This document shows, piece after piece, positions 45,390 through 64,000 of a stretch of DNA of 64,000 nt. Every line of letters begins with the position of its first letter. Position 1 is the stretch's first letter. The position numbers and the translations under genes are program-made. The notes beneath the pieces are model-generated. The model saw nothing but the letters and a program-made list of their open reading frames with translations. It was not told the origin of the DNA and searched no databases. This DNA is from Dioscorea cayenensis subsp. rotundata (lineage: Eukaryota; Streptophyta; Magnoliopsida; Dioscoreales; Dioscoreaceae), in NCBI RefSeq assembly GCF_009730915.1, contig NC_052474.1, positions 4,623,501-4,687,500 of the forward strand, written 5' to 3'.

Positions 45390-45979
45390 AACAACAAATT
45401 CATATTCCGAGTGCTTTTATTCCTTTTCTCTCAACGAATTTATTCTTTTAAAAAAAATATTTATGAAGTGGGCTTGTGTGCCTGCATGACAAATGGGATG
45501 AGGCCAGATGTTTCAAGCCATGATTGCCTTAGTGCCCACTGCCCAGACAAGGAAAAGGTCAACAAACAGCAACCATTCATTATCAACTAATAACATAAAA
45601 GGTTGGAAAAAAAGAAACGTAGGATCACACACCATTGGTAGTGCCCGGACTGGCAAATACCATTTTCTAAAAGCACAAACCTGGAACCTAATAAAGTGTC
45701 TTTGTCACGCATGCATTAAGGATCTACTCTGTTAGTCTATTCTAGTTCATGTGTTTTTCTGAAGTTTGTAACTACAAATCATGACTATAGAGAATAATAA
45801 CACTCTCAGCGGCAAAAGCAAAATATCCATCCACTGCGCACTACATTCTTCAACACCCAGCACGCTTAATGACAAAGAAAGATTCGTCCTTTCTGCAGTT
45901 GCATTCAATAAAAACCCATAGTCATAACCAGCACAAAATGCATACCAAAACAGTGCAAAAGTGCAAACTTGAAACAACC
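45390..45979 (+). promoter_or_regulatory. 5' flank of receptor-kinase copy 1, duplicated at copy 3
   Basis: From about 45390 the text is paralogous to 60090-60594 plus 61471-61595: shared phrases include CAAATTCATATTCCGAG, GATGAGGCCAGATGTTT, AAGGAAAAGGTCAACAAACA, CGGACTGGCAAATACCAT and TTCGTCCTTTCTGCAGTTGC. It therefore belongs to the duplicated unit and marks its left boundary. It holds the undisturbed site (CAACACCCAGCACGCTTAATG) where copy 3 has received a transposon. Confidence 0.75.
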
Positions 45980-48900
45980 ATGTTGTTGTCTCAGTTGCTC
46001 AACTTCATCACCACCACCTTCATCATTTTGGTCTTCTCAACCACCGCCACCGCCGCCAACCTTTCACTCCCTCACCCTCTCATCTCCTTCCTTGAAAGCC
46101 TCCCACAATCCTCACAGCGCCTGCTTCTCTGGAACAACACCCTGCCACCCTGCCAATGGCCGGGTGTCTCCTGCTCTTCCAACTCAACAAGCATCACCTC
46201 AATCGACGTCTCGAGCCTCGGCCTCTCCGGCCAACTCTCCTCCTCCGCTCCCCATCTCTGCCGTATCACCACCCTCCGTGAGATCATTCTCAGCTACAAC
46301 AACTTCTCCGGCCCTATTCCCCCTTCCCTCTTCCACTGTCCTTCACTCACCAGCCTCCGCCTTGGCTTCAACTCCCTCTCCGGTCCCATCCCTCCGGACG
46401 TCCTCCTCGCCACCCATCTCACTGAGCTCGTCCTTAGCAACAACTTCCTCTCTGGCAGCATTCCCAAACAACTCCTCCGCCTCCCCCACCTCCAACTTCT
46501 AAATCTCCACAGTAATAATCTCACTGGCCCTTTACCTGACTTCCCACCTTCATGCTCTGTTTCCAAGCTCAATCTCAACAAAAACATACTCTCTGGCCCT
46601 CTCCCTCCTACTCTTTCCAACTGCGTCAACCTCACCGAGTTCTTAGTTTCTTCAAACAAGCTCTCGGGTATCATCACTAGTGATGCCTTTGTGGGTCTTC
46701 GGAGTCTGCAGTGCCTCTTCATGGAAAACAATGACTTCACCGGCGAGTTGCCGAGGAGTTTGCTTGGTCTCACTGGTTTGACAGTGCTGGTCCTTTCTAA
46801 AAACCAGTTTAATGGCACTATACCTGAAGCCATTGGCCACCTTCAGTCTCTGACCGAGATTTTCCTCTGGGGGAACAATCTCACCGGCCCCATTCCTCGC
46901 TCTGTAGGTACTCTTGCACTTCTGAAAACTCTGGAGCTTTCAAGTAACCAGCTTGTGGGGCCTTTACCATCCGAGCTTGGGAACTGCAGTTCCTTGGTTG
47001 AACTTCTGCTTCAGTTTAATCTCATTGGAGGTCCTATCCCACCGGAGATTTCCAATCTGAAGAAGCTGGAGAAGCTCTACCTCTTTGATAACGAATTGGA
47101 GGGAATCATTCCACCGCAGATTGGAAACATGACCAGTCTCATCGACTTGCAGCTTTACAACAACAGCTTGAGTTTCCGGATTCCTGCAGAGGTCGTTTAC
47201 TTGAGGAACTTGAGGTATATGTCATTGGCTTTCAACAAGCTTTCCGGCGAGGTGCCTGGGGAACTTGGCCGGAACTTGTCCTATGGCTTGGTGAAGTTGG
47301 ACTTGACTGGAAATGATTTCCATGGGCTAATACCTCCATATCTCTGTGAAGGGGGGTAAACTTTATGCTTTGGTTATCGGGATTAATCGATTCAATGGTA
47401 GTTTTCCCACCAGCATTGCCGGGTGTTCTTCTCTTTGGAGGTTTACTTCGAAAAACAATCTTCTCCATGGAAGCATACCTGATAATATGCCTGCAAATCC
47501 TGGGATTTCATACATGGACCTCAGTAATAACTTTTTTGACGGCCATATTCCTTCTATTCTTGGTTCTTGGACCAACCTTTCAATGCTAAATATATCCAAT
47601 AATCTTCTATCTGGGTCCATCCCTCCTGAACTTGGCAATCTCAAGAAACTGGGAAAGCTCTCGCTTTCTGCAAACAAACTGAATGGATCCATACCTTCTG
47701 AATTAGGCAACTGCACAGAGCTTCTGGAGTTGGTCCTTAGTAATAACCTTCTTTCAGGGAGAATTCCTGCGGAGATTGTGGTATTGGACAAACTGAGGAA
47801 TCTATTGCTCTCTGGGAACAAATTCTCTGGAGGTATACCTGATTTTTTTACACCAACTCAAGATCTTTTAGAATTGCAGCTTGGTGACAATATGCTTGAA
47901 GGCTCCATTCCTTCCAGTTTAGGTAGTCTTCAGTACATTTCCACTGCTCTCAACCTCAGTAGTAATAGATTGAATGGTAGCATTCCACCTAGTCTTGGCC
48001 AACTTCGTGGCCTGGAAGTGCTTGACCTGTCCAACAATTTCTTGTCTGGTGAGATCCCTTCAAGATTGAGTGACATGGTTGCTCTTACCTTTGTGAATGT
48101 TTCTTCTAATCAACTCTCTGGTAGACTACCTGAGGGCTGGATTAAGTTTTTAAATTCATCACCAGCTTCATTTTCAGGTAATCCAGCACTATGTATAGTT
48201 GGCAATTATTATTGCCAAAAGGAAGCAAAAGAACATGGCCATGGAATTCACTGGGCAATAATACTTGTTATTGTTGTTCTTGGTATAATTTTCTGTTTAG
48301 TAGGAATGCGCATAGCCACATATGTTGCAGCTGGGAGAGCACAGGATGGTTCTTCTCATCTTCCATCGTCCATTCGTAGTGTTGACTCGGTGGCAGACTT
48401 CCCTGAAGATCTTACATATGAGGATATATTGCGAGCTACTGAAAAACTTGAGTGAGAAGTATGTGATTGGGAGAGGAAAAACATGGTACTGTTTACCGGA
48501 CAGAGTTTGAGGCTGGAAAACTCTGGGCTGTGAAGAGGGTCGATTTGTCACAGTCCTGTTTCATACTTGAAATGAAGGTTTTGAGTTCAGTGAAGCACCG
48601 AAATCTAGTGAAGGTGGCAGGCTATTGTGTGAAAGATGGATTCGGTATGATAATTTATGAGTACATGCCTGGTGGCACTCTTTTTGATACTCTACATGAC
48701 AGGAAAACACAAGTTGCATTGGATTGGGAAACCCGGCATCGAATTGCTTTAGGCATAGCGCAAGGTCTTTCTTATCTTCACCATGATTGTGTGCCGCGGA
48801 TAGTTCATAGAGATGTTAAATCTAACAACATACTGATGGATTCTGACTTGGAACCAAAGATTGGAGACTTTGGAACAGCAAAACTATTAGGTGATGCAGA

Positions 48901-49419
48901 ATCAAGCTCAACAGTGTCTGTGGTTGTAGGAACTCTTGGTTACATTGCTCCAGGTATGTGTGTCAGCTACTACTCAAATCAATATCTGCATTCATTTGGT
49001 GTATTTTTTGGCAGTTGGTGCTTTCTGGTTATATTTTCTAATTCATACAGAGATTGGATATTCGACCAAAGTGACAGAAAAATCAGATGTTTACAGCTAT
49101 GGAGTTGTTCTGTTAGAACTTCTTTGCCGGAAATTGGCAGTGGATCCAAATTTTTGGAGATGGTGTTGATATCGTGACCTGGATAAGATCAAAACTAGAA
49201 AATGCAGATATGTTTAGCCGTCTCTCTTTGCTTGATGTGGAGATGCAGTACTGGATGGAAGATGAGAAAAATAAAGCGCTCGAACTATTGGATTTAGCTA
49301 TTTCATGCACCAAGGTAGCATTTGAAGCAAGGCCCTCCATGAGAGAAGTTGTGGGAATGCTGATGAAGATGAAGGGTAGAGAAATTAAGAAGGAAGATAA
49401 GAAGAAGGCCTCTTTCTAA
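45980..49419 (+). CDS. LRR receptor-like kinase (subfamily XI type), copy 1, frame interrupted
   Basis: Signal peptide from ATG 45980 ([19 protein letters not shown]), N-terminal cap with CQWPGVSC, about 24 LRRs of the plant LxGxIP type, a transmembrane helix near 48255-48320 ([18 protein letters not shown]) and a kinase domain. The kinase has GRGKHGTVY, the catalytic Lys in [18 protein letters not shown] (GDFGTAKLL) and GTLGYIAPE; one intron, 48954-49050, splits the APE glutamate. It is an RD kinase with all key residues. By family it resembles LRR-XI receptors for peptide ligands (PEPR-like wording), at the plasma membrane. The frame shifts four times, at 47351-47356 (G run), 48442-48446 (A run), 48477-48481 (A run) and 49151-49155 (T run), each one base too long compared with copy 3, the copy 2 sliver or the family. 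Otherwise the coding length would be 1112 residues. Pseudogene or consensus errors: see findings. Confidence 0.9.
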
Positions 49420-50240
49420 TGGACGTGTGCTTTGATATGCAATAGTAACAACCGCTCGAAGTCTACTAGTCTATTATTGTGATGATATATAGTATGTAAA
49501 TTCTTCAAACCATGTGCAACTATTTGGATCACTGGCACTTTGACCACAATTGGTCACCTCTGCTCCTTTTGTTCTGATTCACAGAGGGGCCAAATGTTCA
49601 GCTTTGGTCATTGTGATCCTTTGCAAGGATTAAAGTTGTTCAGATTGTCTCCTTTGTAAATTAGTCACTGTAGCGCCAGAGCCACTTGAGTTAAGTGGCG
49701 AGTGGCACTCAAAATAAATTGTTCATGTGGCACTCTTTCAACAAACAATAAAAATAAAAGAATTACTGTAGTACTTGACTTAATTTTTTTTTTTTTTATT
49801 GATTTGTTTCATCGTCCTTAATTTGTGTTGCATGCTAACAAGAGATTTTAAATTTAGATTTATAGTTCGTAAATAGCACAATTTAATTTTTTTAAAAATT
49901 AATCACATTTTAATTAAAGAAGATACATGGTACAAAGACAAGCAAGTACAGAAAATATAGTCTACTGGCACTGGCAGTGCACTATTGAAATATGTTCCAT
50001 CATATTTGCAAAGGAGGTTGGGATAATTTGAACAGGCTTCCCACTGGTACTTGTATCTTTCGCCAAGCGTCCTGTGTCCAAAGGGGAATGTCTAGATAAA
50101 GCAAAATGATTGTATTAAGCTTGCTTCATTCTTGTCAACCAATATCATTTTCAAATTTATACATGTCTCCTCTTTGAATTTCTTCTATATCTGTTTCCTA
50201 TAACCTCTTTTATTTTAATAAATTTGAATTGAAAAAAAAT
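49420..50240. other. 3' flank of receptor-kinase copy 1
   Basis: 3' UTR and AT-rich spacer with no gene. A short stretch at 49675-49740 contains two related phrases around AGTGGC / GTGGCACTC, possibly decayed repeat ends. Confidence 0.45.
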
Positions 50241-50790
50241 ATTGAAATTTATTCCTATGTCTTTTTTTTTTGGATCTCTTCTTTGGATTTCTTCCATCTA
50301 TGTCTTCTAAATTGGTGAATATTTTCCACTCAGTTGTGTTTCCCTCTTTTTTCTTTTCTTTGTGTCTCTATTAGTTTTGTTGTTTTTTTTTAAGTTTATC
50401 ACCTCTAGTGATAGACTCTTTTTGTAGTTTTTTTTTTCATTTATTTTTTGTTGTATTTGTTGTACTTGTTTGTTTGCTATTTTTTTTTCAATAAATTTGT
50501 TGTTTATTTATTTTTAACAAAAAATAAAAATAAAAAACTAACATAATCACTCCTTTTGATCATGCTCTACTGCCTTCTATTTGTGTCTCAATGTTGTTCT
50601 TCTTTTATCTATTATGGAGTAGTAGTTTTTTTCTTTGTTTTATGTGTTGTTTCTATAGTTTGCTTTTAGCTTTATTTATTTATTTTAATTTGTTATTATT
50701 GTTTTGATTTTTTTTTGTCTCATGTGTTTGTCTTTGTACTTTTTTTTTCAATAAATTAAGATTTATCCATCTTTATAAAAAAACCTAGAG
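50241..50790 (+). mobile_element. Tandem plus-strand LINE 3' ends
   Basis: Two T-rich segments each end in the LINE terminal phrase on the plus strand: TTTTTTCAATAAATTTGTTG with TTTATTTATTTTTAAC and an A-rich tail at about 50488-50530, and TTTTTCAATAAATTAAGATT with TATCCATCTTTATAAAAAAA at about 50745-50785. Words such as CATGTGTTTGTCTTTGTACT precede the ends. These are 3' UTR pieces of 5'-truncated copies. The second end recurs at 58860-58932, so it was present before the receptor unit duplicated. Confidence 0.55.
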
Positions 50791-51203
50791 CTATCTTTTG
50801 CCACAAGAAAATATATATATATATATATATATATATAAACAAATTCAAATCACACGATTCACACTGCCACCAAAGAAATTAATAGAGTCAAATAAACAAT
50901 ACTTTTAGATAGGCAAAAACATAGCAACAAAAATAATAGTAAATATAAACTACTTTTAAAATATATGAATTCTAGATTATAAATAATCAATTAGAATAGA
51001 TTTTATGAGATTTGAATTAATTCGGGATGTTTGCGAATTAATAATTAACTGGTATTTAAATTAATTTTATTTATAAACTAAACAAAATTATTTTTGCTTT
51101 GTGTAAAATGAATGAAGATAAGCTTAATGATTATTAAAAGAATTTTTAACTCTGTTAAATGTCACATAGCAATTAGAGGCCTATCTCCATGTGCACACTT
51201 GCG
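50791..51203. repeat. Duplicated flank of the receptor unit (upstream of copy 2)
   Basis: Aligns with 58930-59660 less a LINE insert: shared text ATCACAC, AATAGAGTCAAATAAACAA, CATAGCAACAAAAATAATAG, TAAATATAAACTACTTTTAAA, AATTAGAATAGA, TGTGAAATGAATGAAGATAAGC-like words and TTAATGA-TATTA. In copy 3 this flank lies upstream of a whole receptor gene; here it runs straight into a kinase fragment. Includes an (AT)n run at 50811-50837. Confidence 0.7.
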
Positions 51204-51229
51204 TTTGAGGATCTTACATATGAGGATAT
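51204..51229 (+). pseudogene. Receptor-kinase copy 2 sliver, left part
   Basis: GAGGATCTTACATATGAGGATAT (quoted in two parts: GAGGATCTTACA, TATGAGGATAT) equals copy 1 text at about 48403-48426, coding for EDLTYEDI at the start of the kinase region. All LRR and transmembrane coding DNA expected to its left is missing. The copia element begins directly after it, and the continuation is at 55919. Confidence 0.75.
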
Positions 51230-51456
51230 TGTTAGAAGTATGAGTATGCATTCTCTTTTAGTCTTTGACCATTTGACCATTTCATTGTTTTCAGTTAGAG
51301 TGAGTGGCTAGCAATCAGGGTTGTTTCAAGTAGTGCCACTATTTTTTCCTTGTTTGTTACTGCATGTTGTACCACTCCTTGGAATTGAGTTATTTAATGA
51401 AGTGAGATCCAAGAGATCATGATTACGGCAAAATAAGCTTCACTTAGTTTTTTTCA
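51230..51456 (+). repeat. 5' LTR of Ty1/copia element 1
   Basis: About 227 bp beginning TGTTAGAAG and ending TTTTTTTCA, paralogous to 55687-55918. It is followed directly by a primer-binding site of the initiator-Met tRNA type (TGGTATCA...GAGC), usual for plant Ty1/copia. By eye the two LTRs differ at roughly one position in nine. Confidence 0.85.
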
Positions 51457-54400
51457 TGGTATCAAGAGCCCAGATCCAATGGTGAATCCTGCATTGTCCA
51501 ATACAGCCTCTTCTTACACATTCACAAAATCTCAATTCTTCTCCTTCAACTGGTCTCTTACCCGACCTTCCTTCAACCACCTCATCAACGTGATGCTTAC
51601 AAGGGACAATTATCTGCTGTGGAAGGCACAGTTTCTGCCTTACCTGCGAAGCCAACAATTGCTCGGATATGTCGAGGGGACCATCGTGCGTCCATTAGTG
51701 GCAATCACACAGAGCAATGAAGAAGGAACTGCAGTAGTCCCAAATCGAGAATATTGCATCTGGTATCAACTGGATCAACTTGTGCTCAGTGCCTTGTTGT
51801 CCTCACTCACTGAAGAGATCTTCTCCCATGTCCTTTTCTTGTCTACTTCTAGAGAGGTATGGCTCACTTTGGTGAAAATGTTTTCATCAAGCTCCAGAGC
51901 CCGAATCATGCAGATCCGAATGCAACTGTCTCCTTTACAAAAGAAGGATCTCTCAATTAATAACTATTTTCACAAGGTTAAAAATCTTACCATTACTCTG
52001 TCAGCTATTGGTAACCCCCTTCATGAGGAAGAGATTGTATCCTACCTATTGGCAAGACTTGGTTCCGAGTATGACCCTATAGTCACGAGTGTTACCACTC
52101 GCACTGCTCTGTCAGCTATTGGTAACCCCCTTCATGAGGAAGAGATTGTATCCTACCTATTGGCAAGACTTGGTTCCGAGTATGACCCTATAGTCACGAG
52201 TGTTACCACTCGCACTGATTTAGTAACTATGGGAGATTTGTTTGCTCATTTGTTGAGCTTTGAGCTGAGACTTGAGCATAACAGTACCAGTTTTTAGATA
52301 GCAACAGCAAACAATGTTAGTATGAGTCCAACAAACCAAGCCCGTGGCGGTGGTAGAAACAATCGTGGCCGAGGCCGTGGAAGAGGAGGACGATTTCTTG
52401 ATGGTTATGGTAATCCCAGACAATGAAGTAATGGACCACGACCAATTTGCCAAGTTTGCGGCAAACCAGGACATGAAGCATTGCGCTGCTACCACAGGTT
52501 TGATCACACGTACCAGTCGGAGGAAAATCACATGGTAGCAACAGTAACTAAAAATTTATATTCAGTTGATCCAAATTGGTATGTAGATACTGGAGCAATG
52601 GACCACATCACTAATGACCTGAAGAGATTGACTACCAAGGAACCCTATGGTGGTACTAATCAAGTCCAAGTCGCAAATGGGCAGGTTTGTCAATTACTTA
52701 TACTGTAAATTCCTCTCTTGTTGGATATACCAAACCTTTATTTCTGAAAAATATTCTCCATGTTCCAAAAATTAATCGTCACTTACTATTTGTTCATAAG
52801 CTTGCTCTTGACAATAATGCTTTTGTTGAGTTTCATTCTGATTGTTTCCTTGTTAAGGATCAAGCCACGAAAATAGTCATTCTCAAGGGCAAATATAAAA
52901 GCGGACTTTATGCTTTTGCTCACTGCCAACCAAATTAAGCACTTCTTTCAGCTTAACTCACTCAAGAGCAGTGGCACCAGAGAATAGGTCATCCATCACC
53001 TTCAATTGTCCAAGCAATCCTGGAGAATAGCAAGCTTGCTGTAGGTTCAAACAAGTCTAATTCTATTTGTAGTGCTTGTTAGCAAGCCAAAATACATCAA
53101 CTTCCTTTTAGCTCATCATCTCATGTTTCTTCTCATCCTTTAGAACTTGTTTATTCAGATGTTTAGGGTCCTGCTCTTCCATCTGTTGGAGGTTATAAAT
53201 TTTATGTAAGCTTTATTGACGACTTTAGTAAATTTACATGGATTTATTTTCTCCGACACAAGTCAGATGTAAGCAAATTTTCTTTCAATTTTCAAAAACA
53301 TGTTGAGCGTATGTTTGGCCGAAAAATCCTCACTATTCAAACTGACTGGGGTGGGGAATATCAAAAACTCCACAAATTTTTTAACCTTGAAGGTATCAAT
53401 CATAGAGTCTCTTGCCCTCATACCCATCAACAAAACGGGTCAGTCAAAAGAAAACACCGACACATTGTTGAAACTGGTCTTTCCCTACTTGCTCAGTCAC
53501 ACATGCACATTCGTTTTTTGGGATGAGGCATTTCATACCACTTGTTTTCTGATTAATAGAATGTTGAGTCGTGTGATATCTGGTAATACACCCTTAATAC
53601 GTCTTTTTGGCCATGATCCAGATTACTCCTTTGTTAGGGTGTTTGGATGCACATGTTGGCCAAACTTGCGACCTTACAACTCAAGAAAACTTGCATTCCG
53701 AACTAAACAATGTGTTTTTTTAGGTTATAGTGGGTCTCACAAAGGGTACAAATGTCTTGATCAGTCTACAGGACGAGTCTACATTTCTTGTGACGTGGTG
53801 TTTGATGAGCAAGTATTTTCTTTTCAAAAGTCCTCTGAAAATGTTTCACACTCTGTTCCAAATCATTCACACTCCACTGTCCTTCCTCCTTTAGTTACCT
53901 CTTAACTTCCTCGTATCGACAAAGATCCAACAACATCTATTCCTCCTAATCCAGCAAGGGATGAAATTCAGATAAGTAATTACAATACTAACCCTATGAC
54001 CGACAATGTTACTTTGAATTCTGAGTCTACAGATGCTCAAGATGGACCCACTAGTCAACAACATGGTGTTGATCATCATCCAATGAGAACGAGATTACAA
54101 AACAACATCCGGAAGCCGAGGAAGTTCAATGATGGCACTATTCCATATCCGACAAATAGGAGGGCATTCTCAACATTAGCTAAACCAACTACTCACATTT
54201 AAGCTATGCAACATCCTCAGTGGAGAAGTGCTACGGATGCAGAGTTTAAAGCCTTGCTCAAAAATAAAACTTGGCAACTGGTACCACCAAGGGGAAGCGT
54301 GAATATTATCGATTGCAAATAGGTCTTCAAACTCAAAAGAAAAGCAGATAGTACTATTGATAGGTACAAGCACGCCTTGTTGCAAAAGGATTCAAGCAAA

Positions 54401-55686
54401 GGTATGGAATTGATTATCTTGAAACTTATAGTCCAGTAGTTAAGCCTACAACTATTCGGATTTTTTTTGTCTATTGCAACCTCCAAGGGATGGATATTGA
54501 GGCAGATTGATATACAAAATGCATTTCTTCATGGTGTGTTGCAAGAAGAAGTCTACATGAGGCAGCCTACAGGGTATAAGAATGTTAATTTTCCTCCTAA
54601 TTATGTTTGCTTGTTGGAAAAGGCCTTGTATGGGTTAAAACAGGCACCTAGAGCATGGCATTCTAGGCTAACCTACAAACTCCAGGAACTCAGGTTCACA
54701 ACATCCAAGTCTGACACATCTTTGTTCATTTTTAACCAAAATGGAATCACAATATTCATGCTTATTTATGTCGATGACATAATCATTGTGAGTTCCTCTG
54801 CTAGTGCGTCAGACAAACTAATCTAACAATTGACACAAGACTTTGCCGTCAAAGACCTTGGACCATTGGAGTTTTTTCTAAGCATTGAAGTCAAGTCTAC
54901 CAAAAATAGTATTTTGTTGTCGCAAGGAAGATATATTGCAGATCTCTTGGGAAGAACAAACATGAAGCAATGCAAAGAAATATCTACACCTATGGAAATT
55001 GGTGAAAAATTGACCAAGACTGAATGAGTACAACTATCAGATACTGACACTTTTCAATACAGAAGCATAGTAGGAGCATTGCAGTACCTTACAATCACAC
55101 ACCCAGATATTCCATTTGTAGTGAACAAAGTATGCCAATTTTTGCAACATCGCACTGATCTCCATTAGACAGCAGTGAAAAGAATTCTACACTACATCAA
55201 GGGTACTCATACTAGAGGAATATGGCTTCCGAAGTCTTCTTGAACAACTCTCAATGCTTTCTCGGACGCAGACTGGGCTGGATGCCTAGATGATCGGCGC
55301 TCTACAAGAGGGTTTGCAATCTTTCTAGGCTCAAATCTTGTATCATGGAGTTCAAGAAAACAACCTACAGTATATCGTTCAAGCATGGAGTCAGAGTACA
55401 AAGCAATTGCAAATGCTACAGCAGAGGTGATATGGATACAATCGTTATTGTGCGAACTTGGTATTTTTCAGAATAATGCTCCTAGGCTGTGGTGCGACAA
55501 TCTTGGAGCAACCTATTTGACTGTTAATCTAATCTTCCATGCTAGAATGAAACATATTGAATTTGATTTTCACTTCATTCGAGAGCAAATCTCAGACATG
55601 TTTACTAAAGCTCTGACCAAACCAGTATTTCGTTCATTTTGCAACAATCTCAATCTGAAGACTCTTTAGTTGTGATTGAGGGAGAC

Positions 55687-55918
55687 TATTAGAAGTATGA
55701 GTATGCATTCTCTTTTATTCTTTGACCATTTGACCATTTCACTATATTCTAGCTGTTAGAGTAATTGGCTAGCATTCAAGGCTGTTTCAAGTAGTGCCAC
55801 TGTTTTCACCTTGTTTGTTACTGTACGTTGTACCACTCCTTGGAATCAAGTTATTTAATAAAGTGAGATCCAAGAGATCATGATTACAAAAAAAATAAGC
55901 TTCACCTAGTTTTTTTCA
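55687..55918 (+). repeat. 3' LTR of Ty1/copia element 1
   Basis: About 232 bp matching the 5' LTR over its whole length, ending TTTTTTTCA immediately before kinase-fragment sequence. It is preceded by the polypurine tract GAGGGAGA. Confidence 0.85.
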
Positions 55919-56024
55919 TATTGCGAGCTATTGAAAACATGAGTGAGAAGTATGTGATTGGGAGAGGAAAACATGGTGTTGTATACCTGACAGGGTTTGA
56001 GGCTGGAAACTAAGGGCTTTGACG
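55919..56024 (+). pseudogene. Receptor-kinase copy 2 sliver, right part
   Basis: Continues the fragment at 51204-51229. It reads [20 protein letters not shown], then VYLTGFEAG, in one frame, matching the P-loop region of copy 1 at about 48427-48525 and showing four A residues in both A runs where copy 1 has five. The match ends abruptly at about 56010-56024 where a second copia fragment begins. The rest of the kinase is lost. Confidence 0.8.
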
Positions 56025-58190
56025 TATCCCAAAAAGATACATCTTTTAAACTTTGGATCAAGCTTGGACCTCTCATCACCAGGAATATGCACATAAGCCG
56101 GACATCCAAAAATCTTTAATCCTGACAAATCAATGTCATTACCTGCCCACACTTTCTCTGCGGTCTTCCCATCAAAAGGGGCCCGCGGTGATCTGTTGAT
56201 AAGGTAACAAGCCACGTTGACTGCTTCTGACCAGAAACTCTTCCAAAGTCTTGCATTCAACCTCAAGTATCTTGCCCTTTCAGTAATATACCTGTTCATC
56301 CTTTTGGAAACATCGTTTTGCTGAAGTGCCTCTAAATGCCCTACTCCTCACAAAATTCCAGAAACTGTGAATATGTGTACTCTATGCCATTATCTGTTCT
56401 CAAATATTTAACCATTTTGCCAGTCTAATTTTCAACTTCTACTTTCCAGGCCTTGAACTTTAAGAAAACTTCAAATTTACCCAGACCTTTCGTGAGAAGT
56501 TATCAATAAAGGTCACAAAATATTGAGATCCTCCTAATGACAGCTCTTTGGTCGGCCCCATACATTAGAATGTACATAATCCAGAATTCCCTCAGTTTTG
56601 TGTTTACTAACCTTGAACTTCACTCTGGACTGTTTCCTCATTAAACAATACTTGCAGAAGTCTAATTTGCAACAACTAACTTTCTTAAGCAACCCTCGTT
56701 TGTGAAGAGCAACCTTCCCAATTTCACTGAGATGACCTAATCTCATTTGCCACAGAAAGGTTGTGTCATGATCTGATTCTGCAACTGCTGCTCCGTTTAC
56801 AACTGTATTCCCAATCAATCTGTAGATGTTCCCAGCACTCCTCTCTCCCTTCATCATTATCAGTGCACCCTTGCTCACCCTAATGCAATCCTCCTCGGTT
56901 TTATAGCCAAAACCATTCGCATGCACTGTCCCGAGTGAGATCATATTCTTCTTCAATTCTAGAATGTGTCTTACATCATACAAGGCATGAACAACACCAT
57001 CATTCATATGAATTCTGATATGTTCTTTCCAGCAATAGCACATGCCTTATTGTTCCCTATGTAGACAAAACGGAAACTACCTGATGTGTATGAACTGAAC
57101 CAATCCTTGTTGTGAGTCATATGGAAAGAACAACCTGTATCCAGAACCAATGAGTCCAATGGCCGACATGACGAAACAGAAAGAAGATCGCCATCCCATA
57201 TCAGCAATCTAAATCATTGTTCTGAACTATGTTTGGAGATTTTAATGAATCATCGATCTTCTCATTAAACTATTTATTCTTCATTGGACAATCCTTACGA
57301 ATATGCCCAAACTGCTGACATCTGTAACATTGTACAAGTTTTCTACCTCTAGAGTTTGACCTAGAATTCCTTTTTCTGAAATTTTCCTTCCCTTGCTTTC
57401 ATCCACAATCCTGATTTCCTTTCACATAAAGACTTTCCGTTACAAAACCCTCAGAATTATTCTGTCTACACTAGTTATGGGCTAATAGTGCAGTAGTAAT
57501 CTCATCTACCTTTACTGTATCCTTTCCTCATGTGAGTGTCGTCACCAGGTGCTCGTATGAAGGCAGTAAAGAGCACAATAGTATCATCGCCTTATACTCA
57601 TCTTCAATTCGAATCTCGATTCTCTACAAATCACTGATGGTTTGATCGAAGTAGTTGATATGTGCCACCAGATCTCCACCCTCTTGCATCTTTAGCCCGT
57701 ACAACTTCTGCTTCAGATAGAGTTTATTTGTTAGAGACTTTGACATATACCTGGCTTCCAATTTCTTCCAAATCTCCACTGGAGATGAGAGATGCATGAC
57801 GTGATATAACACATCATCTGCCAAACAAAGCCGAATTACTGCTATTGCTCTCACCTGCAATTCCTCCAAATCGGCATCATCTATGCTGTGAGGTTTAGTC
57901 TCCCACAAAGCCTTCAACATCCCTTACTGCGCTAACAGATCGTTGACCCTCCTTTGCCATAAGCCGAAGTTCCCAGTTCCATCAAACTTTCCCACATCGC
58001 AACGGAGTTCATCAACTTCAACAAATCTCTCTGATACTAGTTGTTGAGAAATTGAATTATGATCTAAAGAGAAAATAAAAAACAATCACACAAAAGGCAT
58101 GAGATTTAACGAGGTTCGACAGAGTATGCCTACATTCTTGAGAGCGGAGCGGCTGCCGTTTCTCTTATTAGAAAATTAATTAGGATTACA
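56025..58190 (-). mobile_element. Ty1/copia fragment, gag to integrase, opposite strand
   Basis: Minus-strand coding remains, from high to low coordinates: gag (UBN2-type text IWKKLEARYMSKSLTNKLYL, about 57624-57920), a CCHC knuckle (CYRCQQFGHIRKDC, about 57300-57340), protease (LVLDTGCSFHMT, about 57130-57170), GAG-pre-integrase (LWQMRLGHLSEIG) and the integrase C-terminal part (SFWSEAVNVACYLINRSPRA; FGCPAYVHI). A primer-binding-site-like TAGTATCAGAG (minus) at about 58028-58038 adjoins an LTR beginning near 58042. RT, RNase H and the 3' LTR are absent. It is a different copia lineage from element 1 (wording like Tnt1-94-type polyproteins). Several breaks; a fossil. Confidence 0.85.
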
Positions 58191-58197
58191 TATTATA

Positions 58198-58198
<1 letters not shown>

Positions 58199-58254
<56 letters not shown>
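58199..58254. repeat. (AT)n microsatellite
   Basis: About 27 uninterrupted AT units at the outer edge of the LTR of copia fragment 2. It obscures the true end of that LTR. Confidence 0.95.
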
Positions 58255-58257
<3 letters not shown>

Positions 58258-58261
58258 ATCC

Positions 58262-58541
58262 CTACCCGGTACAATTTACCAAAATACACTTGGGCAATGT
58301 CAAGGCTTTGTTGCTCAACATTGATGAAGACCTTGCAGTGGTCTTCGTTGTGGCTGGCATCGGTTAAGGTGAAGCCGATGTTACGGCAAGTGTCATGGAT
58401 GAACTTTAGTTGTGATTTCACAGAACACCATGACCATGTCGGTCTTGGTGCAGGTTTCACAAGCACAGAGCTTGTCTGGGTGGCCTTCATTAACAGATTT
58501 AGAGGTGAAGAAGAATGTTTCTCATCACCATCATTCATCAA
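58262..58541 (-). CDS. Unrecognised coding-like fragment
   Basis: A minus-strand frame from ATG 58541 remains open past 58262. It has less AT-biased, codon-like composition: [20 protein letters not shown], then [20 protein letters not shown] and [21 protein letters not shown] do not recognise a domain. It lies between a copia LTR with an AT microsatellite and an inverted repeat, so it may be a captured gene fragment, an exon of a decayed host gene, or part of an unclassified element. Confidence 0.3.
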
Positions 58542-58579
58542 GAGATCGGCCGATTTAGGTGTCTTATGCTATCCTGAAC

Positions 58580-58705
58580 TAAAAAAGCGTAAAAGCTTTA
58601 CCGTTTTCAGTGCGAAGAATTGAAAATTATAAAGCTTTTACCGTTTTTAGTGGATTTAAGGCAAAACGGTAAGTTTTTCACTGTTTTGCCTAAATCTATT
58701 TTTAT
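58580..58705. repeat. Hairpin and repeated AAGCTTT(T)ACCGTTTT motif
   Basis: AAAAGCTTTACCGTTTTCAGTG at about 58588 recurs as AAGCTTTTACCGTTTTTAGTG at about 58632. Directly after it, GATTTAAGGCAAAACGGT is followed by a nine-base loop and ACTGTTTTGCCTAAATCT, an 18-bp inverted repeat with few mismatches. Together they look like the terminus of an element or a structured remnant; no second end was identified. Confidence 0.6.
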
Positions 58706-58749
58706 TTTTAAAATTAATTATATTAATAATTAAAATAAAAATATGTAAT

Positions 58750-59660
58750 ATTTTTTTTTGGGAAAAAGCCTTCTTCTACCTCTTGTGGAGTAGTAGTTTT
58801 TTATTTTGTTTTATGTGTCGTTTCTAGCTTTATTTATTTATTTATTATTATTTTGATTTTTTTTTTCTCATGTGCTTGTCTTTGTACTTGTTTTTCAATA
58901 TATTAAGGTTTATTCATCTTTATAAAAAAAACTATAGCTATCTGTTGCCCCAAGAGTGTATATATATATATATATATATATTAAAACAAATGCAAATCAC
59001 ACTACCATTAAAGAGACTAATAGAGTCAAATAAACAAAGCATGTCTGAGGATCAAGGTCTCTCTCAATTTCATGAGCACAAGAGTTGCGAACATTTCTAG
59101 CGATTCAGACCCTAATATAGCTCAGGAGTAGTCTACTCCTCCAGCCAGCTCAGACAGGCCTATGATTCTAGTTGGTAGTCTTTATTGGTCCAGCTTCCCT
59201 TCCGTTTTTAGTTTTTTTTTTCCCTCTTCTTTTCCTTTTATTGTATCAAGTGCCTCACTGTTGGTGTGAGAACTCAAGTTGTTTTCTATTATGTTGTTTA
59301 TTTTACTTTTGTGTGTTTGTCCTTCTCCTTTTTTTTTTTTCAATAAAGTTGTGGTTTAATAAAAAAAATATAAACATAGCAACAAAAATAATAGTAAATA
59401 TAAACTACTTTTAAAGTATTTGGATTTTAGATTATAAATACTCAATTAGAATAGAATTTATGAGATTTGAACTAATTCGGTTGTTTGTGAAGTAATAATT
59501 AACTAGTATTTAAAATAACTTTAACAATAATCTTAACAAAATTATTTTTGCTCAGTGCAAAATGAATGAAGATAAGCTTAATGACTACCAAGAAATTTAT
59601 TAACTCAGTTCGATGTCACATGGTAATTAGCATCTTAACTTTATGTACATACTTAAAAGA
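58750..59660. repeat. Duplicated flank of the receptor unit (upstream of copy 3)
   Basis: Paralogous to about 50590-51180, including the older LINE tail at 58860-58932. It differs by the extra LINE insert at 59039-59368. It continues into AT-rich DNA (59660-60090) with no gene and an (AT)n run at 60049-60064. Confidence 0.7.
59039..59368 (+). mobile_element. 5'-truncated LINE insert, about 330 bp, with empty site
   Basis: The paralogous flank at 50890-50935 reads straight from AGTCAAATAAACAA into GCAAAAACATAGCAACAAAA. Here the same sequence is split by about 330 bp that ends in TTTTTCAATAAAGTTGTGG, TTTAAT and an A run, the plus-strand LINE terminus. Flanking ATAAACAAAG / ATAAACATAG is the near-exact target duplication. 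So it inserted after the receptor unit duplicated. Confidence 0.75.
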
Positions 59661-60089
59661 TATTTGACAAATCAAATCGAGTTAATAAATCCCTGCCATG
59701 CAAGTCCTAGACGGAAATAAAATGATTAATGAGATTTTTAAATAGTATTATATAATTAAATAATTACTAAAATGAAGCTCAACTTAAAAGTTAAAATATT
59801 TATTGGATTCACACTGCAACCCAATAACTTATGTGAGTTTTAAGTTTTTCCCCCTTTTTTTTTTTCTTCTTATTCATGTCAACTGCAGACATTACCCATG
59901 CTATGAATCATTCCCATCTCTTCTCTAAATTCAAGTAAACTTTATTAGATAGGAGAGAAACTTTTATTTTGTGATTATTGTATTTTATTATAATGATAGT
60001 ATTTTTTAGAATATATATGTATAGTAAGTGGCTTGTCGCCCTTTACAAATATATATATATATATAATATTAACCTTTTTAAATTTTAAT

Positions 60090-60594
60090 AGAATTTACAA
60101 CAAATTCATATTCCGAGATCTTTTTTCTTTTCCATTTCTCGCAACGAATTTATTCTTTAAAAAAAATTATGAAGTACCGTGCGTGTGTGTCCGCATCACA
60201 AAAGAGATGAGGCCAGATGTTTAATGGCATGCATGCTGTCCGATCACTATCTCTTTGAGAGGCCGTGACACTCGCCATAGTGCCCAGACAAGGAAAAGGT
60301 CAACAAACAGCAACCATGCATTATTAACTACCAACATAAAAGGTTGGAAAAAAAAAAATAAATAATATCACGGACCATTGGTAAGGCCCGGACTGGCAAA
60401 TACCATGTTTAAAACAACAAACTCGGAACCTAATAAAGAGTCTTTGTCACGTTTGTAACTGCAAATCATGACCTCGAGTTCATGAATTTTTCTCAAGTTT
60501 GTAACTGCAAATCATGACCTCAGGGAATAACAACACTCTCAGCAGCAAAAGCAAAATAGCCATGCACTGCACGCTACATTCCTCAACGCGCAGC
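60090..60594 (+). promoter_or_regulatory. 5' flank of receptor-kinase copy 3 (paralogous to copy 1 flank)
   Basis: Matches the flank of copy 1 from about 45390 on. A small local duplication is present near 60445-60525, where TTTGTAACTGCAAATCATGACCTC occurs twice (quoted word: AACTGCAAATCATGACCTC). The homology is interrupted at 60595 by a TIR transposon and resumes at 61471. Confidence 0.75.
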
Positions 60595-61470
60595 CAAAGT
60601 TGTCAGACCCGGTCCGGACAATGATCCGGCTAAGCCCAGGGGTCAAGGGTCAATGGGTTCGACCAGATCGAACCGGAGTTAAACCGGGGTCAATAATTAA
60701 ATATAAAAAATATTATAATAATTACTAATGAGCAAATATAATATTAAACCCATAATTATATTATAAACCTACTCAAATTTTATATTTAAATTAATAATTG
60801 ACCTTATATTAGGTAGAGTTTTCTAATTATGTCATTTATTTTTACATTTTTTAAATATTTACAAATTTAATATATTAATATATAATTATCGAACTTCTCT
60901 CTGTGTTATTTATTTATTTATTTATTTGTGTATTGGTTGATTTTGTTAAAATAAATAAAAAATTAATTCACTAATTCTTATATCTCAATTGAGTTTTTAT
61001 TTTGTTTTAAATTTTTTTATATTTTTTATTTAATTAGAATACTTTAATTTTATATTTTTATAATAAAATTACACTGATTTATTGTTTTATTTTCTTAATA
61101 AATTAAATTTTTAGAAAGTATTTACATAACACATTAATATATTTTATTTTTAAATGTTAATTTTTGTTGGTATGTTTATGATATATATATATATATATAT
61201 ATATATTGTAATTCTATTTATTGATTATAAATTATAAATTAGTATTAATAAATATACACGATTTTGTGATTTCTAATGAGAAAATAATAATAAATTATTA
61301 AATATTGTAAAAAAAAATTAAACATTGTGACCCGGTTGAACCGCCCGGGTCACCGGATTAACATCGGGTTTTTAATACCCGGGTCAATGGGGTATACTCG
61401 GGCCGGTCACATGGCCGGTTCCTGGTTTTTCTGGTTGAACCAGCTGGATCGGTCCGGGTCTGACAACCTT
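60595..61470. mobile_element. Non-autonomous TIR transposon, about 876 bp, 7-bp TSD
   Basis: Left end AAAGTTGTCAGACCCGGTCC and right end, read inverted, AAGGTTGTCAGACCCGGACC give a TIR of about 20 bp with two mismatches. Direct repeats GCGCAGC flank it at 60588-60594 and 61471-61477. Copy 1 has the undisturbed site at about 45852-45875. The sub-terminal 100 bp are GC-rich with GGTCAA / CCGGTT / ACCCGG words at both ends; the middle is very AT-rich, with an (AT)n at 61183-61206. No transposase frame. TSD length points to hAT or Mutator-like groups; undecided. Confidence 0.8.
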
Positions 61471-61595
61471 GCGCAGCACGCTTAATGAGAAGGATATATT
61501 CGTCCTTTCTGCAGTTGCATTCAATAAAAACCCATAGTTATAACCAGCCCAAAATGCATACCAAAACAGTGCAAGAGTGCAAACTCGAAACAACC

Positions 61596-64000
61596 ATGTT
61601 GTTGCCTCAGTTGCTCACCTTCTTCACCACCACCTTCATCATTTTGGTCTTCTCAACCACCGCCGCCGACCTTTCACTCCCTCACCCTCTCATCTCCTTC
61701 CTTGAAAGCCTCCCAAAATCCTCACAGCGCCTGCTTCTCTGGAACAACACCCTGCCACCCTGCCAATGGCCGGGTGTCTCCTGCTCTTCCAACTCAACAA
61801 GCATCACCTCAATCGACGTCTCGAGCCTCGGCCTCTCCGGCCAACTCTCCTCCTCCGCTCCCCATCTCTGCCGTATCACCACCCTCCGTGAGATCATTCT
61901 CAGCTACAACAACTTCTCCGGCCCTATTCCCCCTTCCCTCTTCCACTGTCCTTCACTCACCAGCCTCCGCCTTGGCTTCAACTCCCTCTCCGGTCCCATC
62001 CCTCCAGACGTCCTCTTCGCCACGCATCTCACCAAGCTCAACCTTCGCAGCAACTTCCTCTCTGGCAGCATTCCCAAACAACTCCTCTTCCACCTCCCCA
62101 ACCTCCAAGTTCTAAATCTATACACTAACAATCTCACTGGCCCTTTACCTGACTTCCCACCTTCATGCTCTGTTTACAAGCTCTATCTCAACGAAAACAT
62201 ACTCTCTGGCCCTCTCCCTCCTACTCTTTCCAACTGCGTCAACCTCACCGATTTTTTCGTTTCTTCAAACAAGCTCTCAGGAGTAATCACTAGTGATGCA
62301 TTTGTGGGTCTTCGGAATCTGCAGTACCTCTTCATGGATTTCAATGACTTCACCGGCGAGTTGCCGAGGAGTTTGTTTGGTCTCACTAGTTTGACCAAGC
62401 TGATCCTTTCTAAAAACCAGTTTAATGGCACTATACCTGAAGGCATTGGCCAACTTCAGTCTCTGACCGAGATTTTCCTCTGGGGGAACAATCTCACCGG
62501 CCCCATTCCTCGCTCTGTAGGTACTCTTGCACTTCTGAAAAAACTGGAGCTTTCAACTAACCAGCTTGTGGGGCCTTTACCACCTGAGATTGGGAACTGC
62601 AGTTCCTTGGTTGAACTTCAGCTTCAATATAATCTCATCGGAGGTCCTATCCCGCCCGAGATTTCCAATCTGGAGAAGCTGGAGAAGTTCTACCTCTTTG
62701 CTAACAAGTTGGAGGGAATCATTCCACCGCAGATTGGAAATATGACCAGTCTCATCGACTTGCAGCTTTACAGCAACAGCTTGAGTTTCCGGATTCCTGC
62801 AGAGGTCGTTTACTTGAGGAACTTGAGGTATATGTCATTGGCTTTCAACAAGCTTTCCGGCGAGGTGCCTGGGGAACTTGGCCGGAACTTGTCCTATGGT
62901 TTGGTGAAGTTGGACTTGACTGGAAATGATTTCCATGGGCCAATACCTCCATATCTCTGTGAAGGGGGTAAACTCAATGTTTTGGTTATCGGGATTAATC
63001 GATTCAATGGTAGTTTTCCTACCAGCATTGCCGGGTGTTCTTCTCTTCGGAGGTTTACTTTGAAAAACAATCTTCTCCATGGAAGCATACCTGATAATAT
63101 GCCTGCAAATCCTGGGATTTCATACATGGACCTCAGTAATAACTTTTTTGACGGCCATATTCCTTCTATTCTTGGTTCTTGGACCAACCTTTCAATGCTA
63201 AATATATCCAATAATCTTCTATCTGGGTCCATCCCTCCTGAACTTGGCAATCTCAAGAAACTGGGAAAGCTCTCGCTTTCTGCAAACAAACTGAATGGAT
63301 CCATACCTTCTGAATTAGGCAACTGCACAGAGCTTCTGGAGTTGGTCCTTAGTAATAACCTTCTTTCAGGGAGAATTCCTGCGGAGGTTGTGGTATTGGA
63401 CAAACTGAGGAATCTATTGCTCTCTGGGAACAAATTCTCTGGAGGTATACCTGATTCTTTTACACCAACTCAAGATCTTTTAGAATTGCAGCTTGGTGAC
63501 AATATGGTTGAAGGCTCCATTCCTTCCAGTTTAGGTAGTCTTCAGTACATTTCCACTGCTCTCAACCTCAGTAGTAATAGATTGAATGGTAGCATTCCAC
63601 CTAGTATTGGCCAACTTCGTGGCCTGGAAGTGCTTGACCTGTCCAACAATTTCTTGTCTGGTGAGATCCCTTCAAGATTGAGTGACATGGTTGCTCTTAC
63701 CTTTGTGAATGTTTCTTCTAATCAACTCTCTGGTAGACTACCTGAGGGCTGGATTAAGTTTTTAAATTCATCACCAGATTCATTTTCAGGTAATCCAGCA
63801 CTATGTATAGTTGGCAATTATTATTGCCAAAAGGAAGCAAAAGAACATGGCCATGAAATTCACTGGGCAATAATACTTGTTATTGTTGTTCTTGGTATAA
63901 TTTTCTGTTTAGTAGGAATGCGCATAGCCACATATGTTGCAGCTGGGAGAGCACAGGATGGTTCTTCTCATCTTCCATCGTCCATTCGTAGTGTTGACTC
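61596..64000 (+). CDS. LRR receptor-like kinase, copy 3, intact to window edge
   Basis: The frame from ATG 61596 runs 801 codons without interruption to the edge, covering signal peptide ([19 protein letters not shown]), the CQWPGVSC cap, about 24 LRRs, a second Cys pair (CIVGNYYC), the transmembrane helix and the start of the juxtamembrane region; the kinase lies beyond the window. It carries the five-G run (GAA GGG GGT) where copy 1 has six. Residues 1-140 and 460-801 are almost identical to copy 1, while the middle LRRs differ at many solvent-facing positions. Expected to be a plasma-membrane receptor of the LRR-XI type with a peptide-like ligand. The upstream TIR element ends 125 bp before the start codon, so its leader or core promoter has been altered relative to copy 1. 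Confidence 0.92.
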   Translation, partial: MLLPQLLTFFTTTFIILVFSTTAADLSLPHPLISFLESLPKSSQRLLLWNNTLPPCQWPGVSCSSNSTSITSIDVSSLGLSGQLSSSAPHLCRITTLREIILSYNNFSGPIPPSLFHCPSLTSLRLGFNSLSGPIPPDVLFATHLTKLNLRSNFLSGSIPKQLLFHLPNLQVLNLYTNNLTGPLPDFPPSCSVYKLYLNENILSGPLPPTLSNCVNLTDFFVSSNKLSGVITSDAFVGLRNLQYLFMDFNDFTGELPRSLFGLTSLTKLILSKNQFNGTIPEGIGQLQSLTEIFLWGNNLTGPIPRSVGTLALLKKLELSTNQLVGPLPPEIGNCSSLVELQLQYNLIGGPIPPEISNLEKLEKFYLFANKLEGIIPPQIGNMTSLIDLQLYSNSLSFRIPAEVVYLRNLRYMSLAFNKLSGEVPGELGRNLSYGLVKLDLTGNDFHGPIPPYLCEGGKLNVLVIGINRFNGSFPTSIAGCSSLRRFTLKNNLLHGSIPDNMPANPGISYMDLSNNFFDGHIPSILGSWTNLSMLNISNNLLSGSIPPELGNLKKLGKLSLSANKLNGSIPSELGNCTELLELVLSNNLLSGRIPAEVVVLDKLRNLLLSGNKFSGGIPDSFTPTQDLLELQLGDNMVEGSIPSSLGSLQYISTALNLSSNRLNGSIPPSIGQLRGLEVLDLSNNFLSGEIPSRLSDMVALTFVNVSSNQLSGRLPEGWIKFLNSSPDSFSGNPALCIVGNYYCQKEAKEHGHEIHWAIILVIVVLGIIFCLVGMRIATYVAAGRAQDGSSHLPSSIRSVD

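Follow-up and report, generated by a model that had tools for sequence, protein, structure and literature searches.

Evidence for sequence exchange and for positive selection on the predicted ligand face in a tandem cluster of PEPR1-like receptor kinases from Dioscorea cayenensis subsp. rotundata

A tandem cluster of LRR receptor kinases

The window analyzed here, a stretch of 64,000 nucleotides of Dioscorea cayenensis subsp. rotundata, corresponds to C4:4623501-4687500 of the host genome; the whole assembly, with 2249 contigs and a length of 584 Mb, was also searched. It contains a 14.7 kb tandem duplication with several copies of a single receptor gene (Table 1), together with a GOST/CAND6-7 gene and a glutaredoxin gene. 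Copies 1 and 3 encode LRR receptor kinases, each with 27 repeats. Copy 3 is intact in the host contig: once one GT-AG intron of 97 nt is removed, it is a single open frame of 1110 amino acids, with its stop codon ending at C4:4688525. It matches LRR families, LRRNT_2 and Pkinase, and, with a signal peptide and a transmembrane segment that were judged by eye, it combines the signal peptide, LRR ectodomain, transmembrane segment and kinase of an LRR receptor-like kinase. The six PDB matches listed for the kinase are BRI1 and BAK1. The intron of copy 1 was placed by comparison with copy 3, and the reading frame of this copy is in pieces as a result of four +1 homopolymer insertions.

The second unit of the duplication begins at 61474 and extends past the window. 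Further on lies copy 4, the coding sequence of which opens with ATGCTG; its start codon is near C4:4699648, about 14.5 kb past that of copy 3. The copia element that splits the copy 2 remnant has terminal repeats that are 87% identical to each other. It was found again in the second unit, at C4:4690290-4694865, and is therefore probably older than the tandem duplication. Elsewhere in the genome, a broken fragment of the receptor lies at C17:2638900-2642150 (the C17 fragment); its pieces show about 88-92% DNA identity, and it carries a deletion and an insertion. Besides the cluster and this fragment, matches with E <1e-60 in a protein search are 35-42% identical (among the matches listed, with 56 of 1321 candidates scored), and short matches reach up to 53% identity, again among those listed.

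Table 1. Coordinates of the receptor copies, their blocks and associated features, as positions in the window
Feature	Position	Strand	Basis or remark
Tandem duplication, first unit (14.7 kb)	45858..60594	+	second unit begins at 61474
Copy 1, LRR receptor kinase	45980..49419	+	two exons, intron 48954-49050
Copy 2, remnant only, around kinase-region start	51210..56022	+	split by copia element
Copia element within copy 2 remnant	51224-55919		terminal repeats 51224-51457 and 55681-55919
Copy 3, same receptor gene as copy 1	61596..64000	+	cut by window end
Homogenized stretch, LRR1 to LRR3	46107..46395	+	0 substitutions among copies 1, 3 and 4
Divergent middle LRRs, copy 1 (LRR3 end to LRR14 start)	46396..47163	+	59 differences from copy 3
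Divergent middle, copy 3 counterpart, one codon longer	62006..62776	+	
Second small divergent patch, LRR16-18	47327..47460	+	7 differences
Homogenized stretch, LRR18 end to LRR27, transmembrane, kinase, 3' flank	47461..49756	+	
G run with one extra base relative to copies 3 and 4	47351..47356	+	frameshift in copy 1
A run with one extra base relative to copies 3 and 4	48442..48446	+	frameshift in copy 1
A run with one extra base relative to copies 3 and 4	48477..48481	+	frameshift in copy 1
T run with one extra base relative to copies 3 and 4	49151..49155	+	frameshift in copy 1

Copies 1 and 3 differ in blocks

A first-pass annotation of this DNA had described copies 1 and 3 as identical over about 46110-46390, as differing many times between 46390 and 47170, and as carrying only about six or seven differences from 47460 to 48390. 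Our counts bear this out. There are no differences at 46107-46395, where copy 4 has one single-base insertion; 59 substitutions and one in-frame 3-base indel at 46396-47163 (hereafter the middle); and 6 substitutions at 47461-48388. All seven of the peptide pairs that it cited are also correct. Outside these blocks, 13 substitutions at 45861-46106 show that the 5' end is divergent too, a single one lies at 47164-47326, and there are none at 48245-49419. This clustering is not random: the longest identical run is 1250 nt (p 2e-4 by permutation). Over the whole of the second homogenized stretch the two copies differ at 6 of 2290 sites, compared with 351 of 10605 across the remainder of the duplicated unit.

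Silent and replacement divergence were estimated for each block by NG86, with blocks set by codon start. In the middle (46396-47160) dS was 0.101 and dN 0.073. The corresponding values were 0.013 and 0 for 46107-46395, where the sole silent change is at 46396; 0.028 and 0 for 47161-47326; and 0 and 0.009 for 47461-48388. In the small patch at 47327-47460 dS was 0.099 and dN 0.050, but the true dS is somewhat lower, one of its three silent changes being an artefact of splitting the copy 1 codons at the frameshift, where the T following the G run was the base omitted. This artefact lowers, rather than raises, the omega of the wider likelihood runs reported below and leaves the middle unaffected.

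Overall, silent differences between copies 1 and 3 occupy 17 of 185 sites in the middle and 5 of 365 in the flanks (p 2e-5), a conservative comparison, since one of the five flank changes is a codon-split artefact. Because silent divergence follows the same contrast, we attribute the difference between middle and flanks to sequence exchange. Selection as its cause is ruled out, since silent sites differ likewise.

The copies form a mosaic

Comparison of copies 1, 3 and 4 gave a statistically supported mosaic between paralogues. Of 3619 comparable sites, 102 are polymorphic. The first 16 (45865-46058) comprise 12 at which copy 3 agrees with copy 4 and 4 at which copy 1 agrees with copy 3; in the next 74 (46106-48244), copy 1 agrees with copy 4 at 73 and copy 3 with copy 4 at one; and the last 12 (48643-49474) all join copy 1 to copy 3. 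This pattern has 9 switches (p 1e-4). Copies 1 and 4 show no differences in the middle and a single substitution across the ectodomain (46059-48642). Their upstream flanks differ at 86 of 485 sites, compared with 24 of 514 for copies 3 and 4, and their downstream flanks show patchy identity of 80-87%. Copies 1 and 3, in turn, have no substitutions across roughly 1.5 kb covering the kinase and the 3' flank, where one 3-base indel and three single-base indels separate them.

The divergence of the middle exceeds what the tandem duplication itself has accumulated: its 17 silent differences in 185 sites compare with a background of 351 in 10605 for the duplicated unit (p 2e-4). One explanation would be that there is no older lineage and that copy 3 alone has evolved fast in the recent past, once the duplication had taken place. 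The direction of change is consistent with this, in that 36 of the 51 sites assignable to copy 1 or copy 3 changed on the copy 3 side (58 sites were examined, of which 3 have a third base and 4 lack C17 sequence). However, the middle has diverged at silent sites nearly three times as much as the duplication background. Nor is this divergence below that from the C17 fragment: over the 205 codons that align to that fragment, dS is 0.128 between copies 1 and 3 and 0.108 between copy 1 and C17. We therefore consider recent change in copy 3 alone very unlikely. In a protein search of the genome, no donor of the copy 3-type middle was found elsewhere among the matches listed (56 of 1321 candidates scored).

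Replacements concentrate at exposed strand residues

Each LRR contains a strand of the form L-x-x-L-x-L-x-x-N, in which the x residues occupy positions 2, 3, 5, 7 and 8. Homology suggests that in this receptor they lie on the concave face. The first-pass annotation had also proposed that the differences mostly alter residues of the xxLxLxx strand, and this was confirmed: 23 of the 37 residue differences in the middle fall at x positions and 14 elsewhere. Among its 256 codons, differences affect 23 of 55 x positions, 1 of 44 strand scaffold positions and 13 of 157 others, so that the spread over scaffold and exposed positions is uneven (x positions versus the 14 of 201 for all others, p 4e-9). 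The middle was chosen for its richness in differences, but this choice alone does not favor x positions. In the small patch at 47327-47460, 5 of the 7 differences are replacements, and x positions hold 3 of the 5 residue differences.

Taken as a whole, the middle has a dN/dS of 0.72 by counting and 0.83 by likelihood, which is below 1, although not well below it. This single value conceals two very different classes. Pairwise codon likelihood with a shared neutral rate gave an omega of 3.21 for x positions and 0.36 for the others; by this measure omega exceeds 1 only at the exposed strand residues, the pattern that the first-pass annotation had named as support for its claim. A single omega for the middle was rejected (LRT 43.0), as was an omega of 1 at x positions (LRT 12.2, p 4.8e-4). 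The result was similar with flat codon frequencies (omega_x 3.03, p 7e-4) and over the whole LRR domain (omega_x 2.65, p 9e-4), and p stayed <0.01 in all 11 runs in which the repeats from LRR4 to LRR14 were left out one at a time. When the C17 fragment was added as a third lineage, leaving 205 of the 256 codons usable, omega_x was 3.1 (p 3e-5).

Could exchange alone account for these data? On this explanation everything but the middle was homogenized, and the bias to x positions is simply tolerated change around a constrained scaffold. The strand scaffold positions are indeed strongly constrained, with an omega of about 0.11, and silent changes, too, cluster in the middle block. Moreover, a counting test limited to x positions was not significant (replacements 26/135, silent changes 3/29; p 0.19). 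The same replacements were significant when the comparison took in every silent site of the middle (p 0.008), and the positive likelihood result likewise draws on the silent sites of the whole middle. Relaxed constraint, however, allows an omega of at most 1, in contrast to the values of 3.2 and 3.1 obtained for x positions with two and three lineages, and we regard exchange alone as rather unlikely.

On the copy 3 side, replacement and silent changes number 16:2 at x positions and 11:7 elsewhere; we do not take this as proof. Polarity is uncertain, the C17 sequence being a broken fragment that may not be an outgroup. Separately, comparison of the C17 fragment with copies 1 and 3 also gave dN greater than dS at x positions.

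The divergent face and PEPR1

The 27 LRRs of the receptor are collinear with those of PEPR1, a member of LRR-RLK subgroup XI, aligning one to one with 269 of 678 aligned residues identical. Like PEPR1, it has an LRR ectodomain, a transmembrane segment and a kinase within one protein. When the genome was searched with the PEPR1 ectodomain, copy 3 had the top score, 420 bits, among the 20 matches listed (65 of 1458 candidates scored). Three shorter pieces, on C404, C27 and C1187, have higher identity (45-49% over 358-403 residues, compared with 40% over 676 for copy 3), so we call the receptor PEPR1-like only. These pieces score lower than copy 3 and have in-frame stops in the matched stretch; the three loci are possible relatives of Pep receptors.

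The ectodomain has 135 x positions, 75 of them in LRR4-18, and it is there that all 26 x differences are found; LRR1-3 (15 x positions) and LRR19-27 (45) have none. Excerpts of two papers place Pep1 on LRR4-18 of PEPR1 (PMC6749341, PMC4526913). Because exchange sets the borders of the divergent region, its match to the Pep1 footprint is suggestive rather than separate proof.

Across the x face of LRR4-18, the net charge is +4 in copy 3 and -1 in copy 1, and the numbers of tyrosines are 8 and 4. At strand position 3 of LRR4, LRR9 and LRR11 (46424, 46784 and 46928), the E, V and T of copy 1 correspond to lysines in copy 3; these three lysines may form a basic stripe on the predicted concave face.

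Frameshifts in copies 1 and 4

Copy 4 has two single-base homopolymer insertions, different from the four of copy 1, and the coding sequence of copy 3 has no frameshifting insertions. All six insertions lengthen short homopolymers in stretches common to another copy. Single-base indels and substitutions stand at 5:1 between copies 1 and 4 at 46059-48642, and at 3:0 between copies 1 and 3 at 48245-49756, compared with 26:351 in duplicated intergenic DNA (p 1.4e-5 and 4e-4); the first two pairs were entered manually from alignment counts. This pattern makes assembly error the likelier cause, and the four frameshifts of copy 1 are probably of that kind rather than signs of gene death.

The four frameshifts would also be expected if copy 1 were a pseudogene and its differences were neutral decay. 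But copy 4 has a middle identical to that of copy 1 without those four frameshifts (it has the two others), and copies 1 and 3 have no substitutions in the approximately 1.5 kb that contains three of them. The scaffold positions are conserved as well. On the frameshift pattern and this conservation, we judge decay of copy 1 to be highly improbable.

A broader artefact, a mixing of two haplotypes or of near-identical copies that made both the tandem order and the mosaic partly spurious, would accommodate both the six homopolymer insertions, every one of them in copy 1 or 4, and the 5:1 ratio between these copies. Against it, copies 1 and 4 differ at 86/485 sites upstream, neither the window nor the stretches of the host contig examined contain any N, copy 3 has an intact frame of 1110 residues, and replacement biased to x positions would not arise in this way. 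An artefact on this scale seems quite unlikely to us, but part of the apparent exchange could stem from the assembly of near-identical copies.

A model for the evolution of the cluster

The first-pass annotation had offered selection for new ligand specificity and conversion of everything else as alternatives; the data support both, for different parts of the pattern. They support the conclusion that exchange homogenized most of the receptor and that an old, positively selected ligand face persists in copy 3, which, judged from its sequence, may have acquired a new ligand specificity. We think it probable that this tandem PEPR1-like cluster has evolved by exchange combined with diversifying selection, through the steps proposed here.

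The model starts from four observations: the 14.7 kb tandem duplication, a mosaic with clean switches, the excess of silent change in the copy 3 middle, and an omega above 1 at x positions and below 1 elsewhere. Copy 3 would have been made by unequal crossover between two older genes, taking its 5' end from the copy 4 lineage and its 3' end from the copy 1 lineage. Later conversion would have erased the differences between the ectodomains of copies 1 and 4 and, between copies 1 and 3, would have rehomogenized both the N-terminal LRRs and the kinase. LRR4-18 of copy 3 would not have been overwritten, and the older ligand-face lineage would therefore have been kept in that copy. Selection for ligand recognition may have driven the exposed residues of this lineage apart. 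The outcome would be two versions of the receptor with one common signaling kinase, recognizing different ligands or variants of one ligand.

A stronger form of this model is possible but, on balance, doubtful. Here selection, not accident, would have set the limits of the unconverted block, with signaling parts swapped freely and two old ligand cassettes kept coextensive with the PEPR1 footprint (LRR4-18), the face of copy 3 being the more basic and tyrosine-rich. A hormone-type class of receptor would then be acting like a resistance-gene cluster.

Relation to known receptor clusters

The tomato Cf and rice Xa21 families are resistance clusters that combine exchange with positive selection on xxLxLxx residues. 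A similar combination, conversion and positive selection on these residues, is described for the SH3 resistance-gene cluster of coffee in the excerpted text of PMC3113787. As far as that text goes, the likeness includes tandem paralogues, conversion and an omega above 1 at x residues only, but the coffee genes are intracellular NLRs, whereas the yam receptor is a cell-surface receptor kinase.

Selection or conversion has also been proposed for a tandem of receptor kinases, the Arabidopsis OAK cluster, in the portions of PMC3136440 on which we draw. That cluster likewise consists of tandem receptor kinases, with new combinations of promoter and coding sequence and high divergence confined to one part of the ectodomain. 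The OAK divergence, however, is in a malectin-like domain, not in LRRs, and was seen between alleles of two accessions.

More generally, Fischer et al. 2016, as cited in passages of PMC5296948 and PMC5380761, reported positive selection on lineage-specific expanded LRR-RLKs. By these accounts the selected genes resemble ours in being recent paralogues with selection mainly in the LRR domain, at a few positions of the repeat. A PEPR1-like gene would nevertheless fall outside the positively selected clusters if it belongs to subgroup XI, to go by the relevant passage of PMC5296948, and such a receptor would be unusual among them. A passage of PMC5380761 does, however, report positive selection on old branches, those that gave rise to the PEPR1/2 group and to the group paired with it.

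For resistance genes, the combination of conversion with selection at x residues is well documented. If the class is truly subgroup XI, evolution of recent paralogues in the style of resistance genes would reach receptors of the peptide-hormone type. Copies 1 and 3 also constitute a natural receptor pair, identical or nearly so in the kinase, the transmembrane part, LRR1-3 and LRR19-27 and different in their predicted ligand faces, that could be used for domain comparison and for a ligand search.

An insertion in the 5' region of copy 3

Finally, the 5' region of copy 3 contains an insertion at 60595-61473 that copies 1 and 4 lack. It has 22-nt terminal inverted repeats that are 91% complementary, resembles a short DNA transposon, and lies about 120 bases ahead of the copy 3 start codon.
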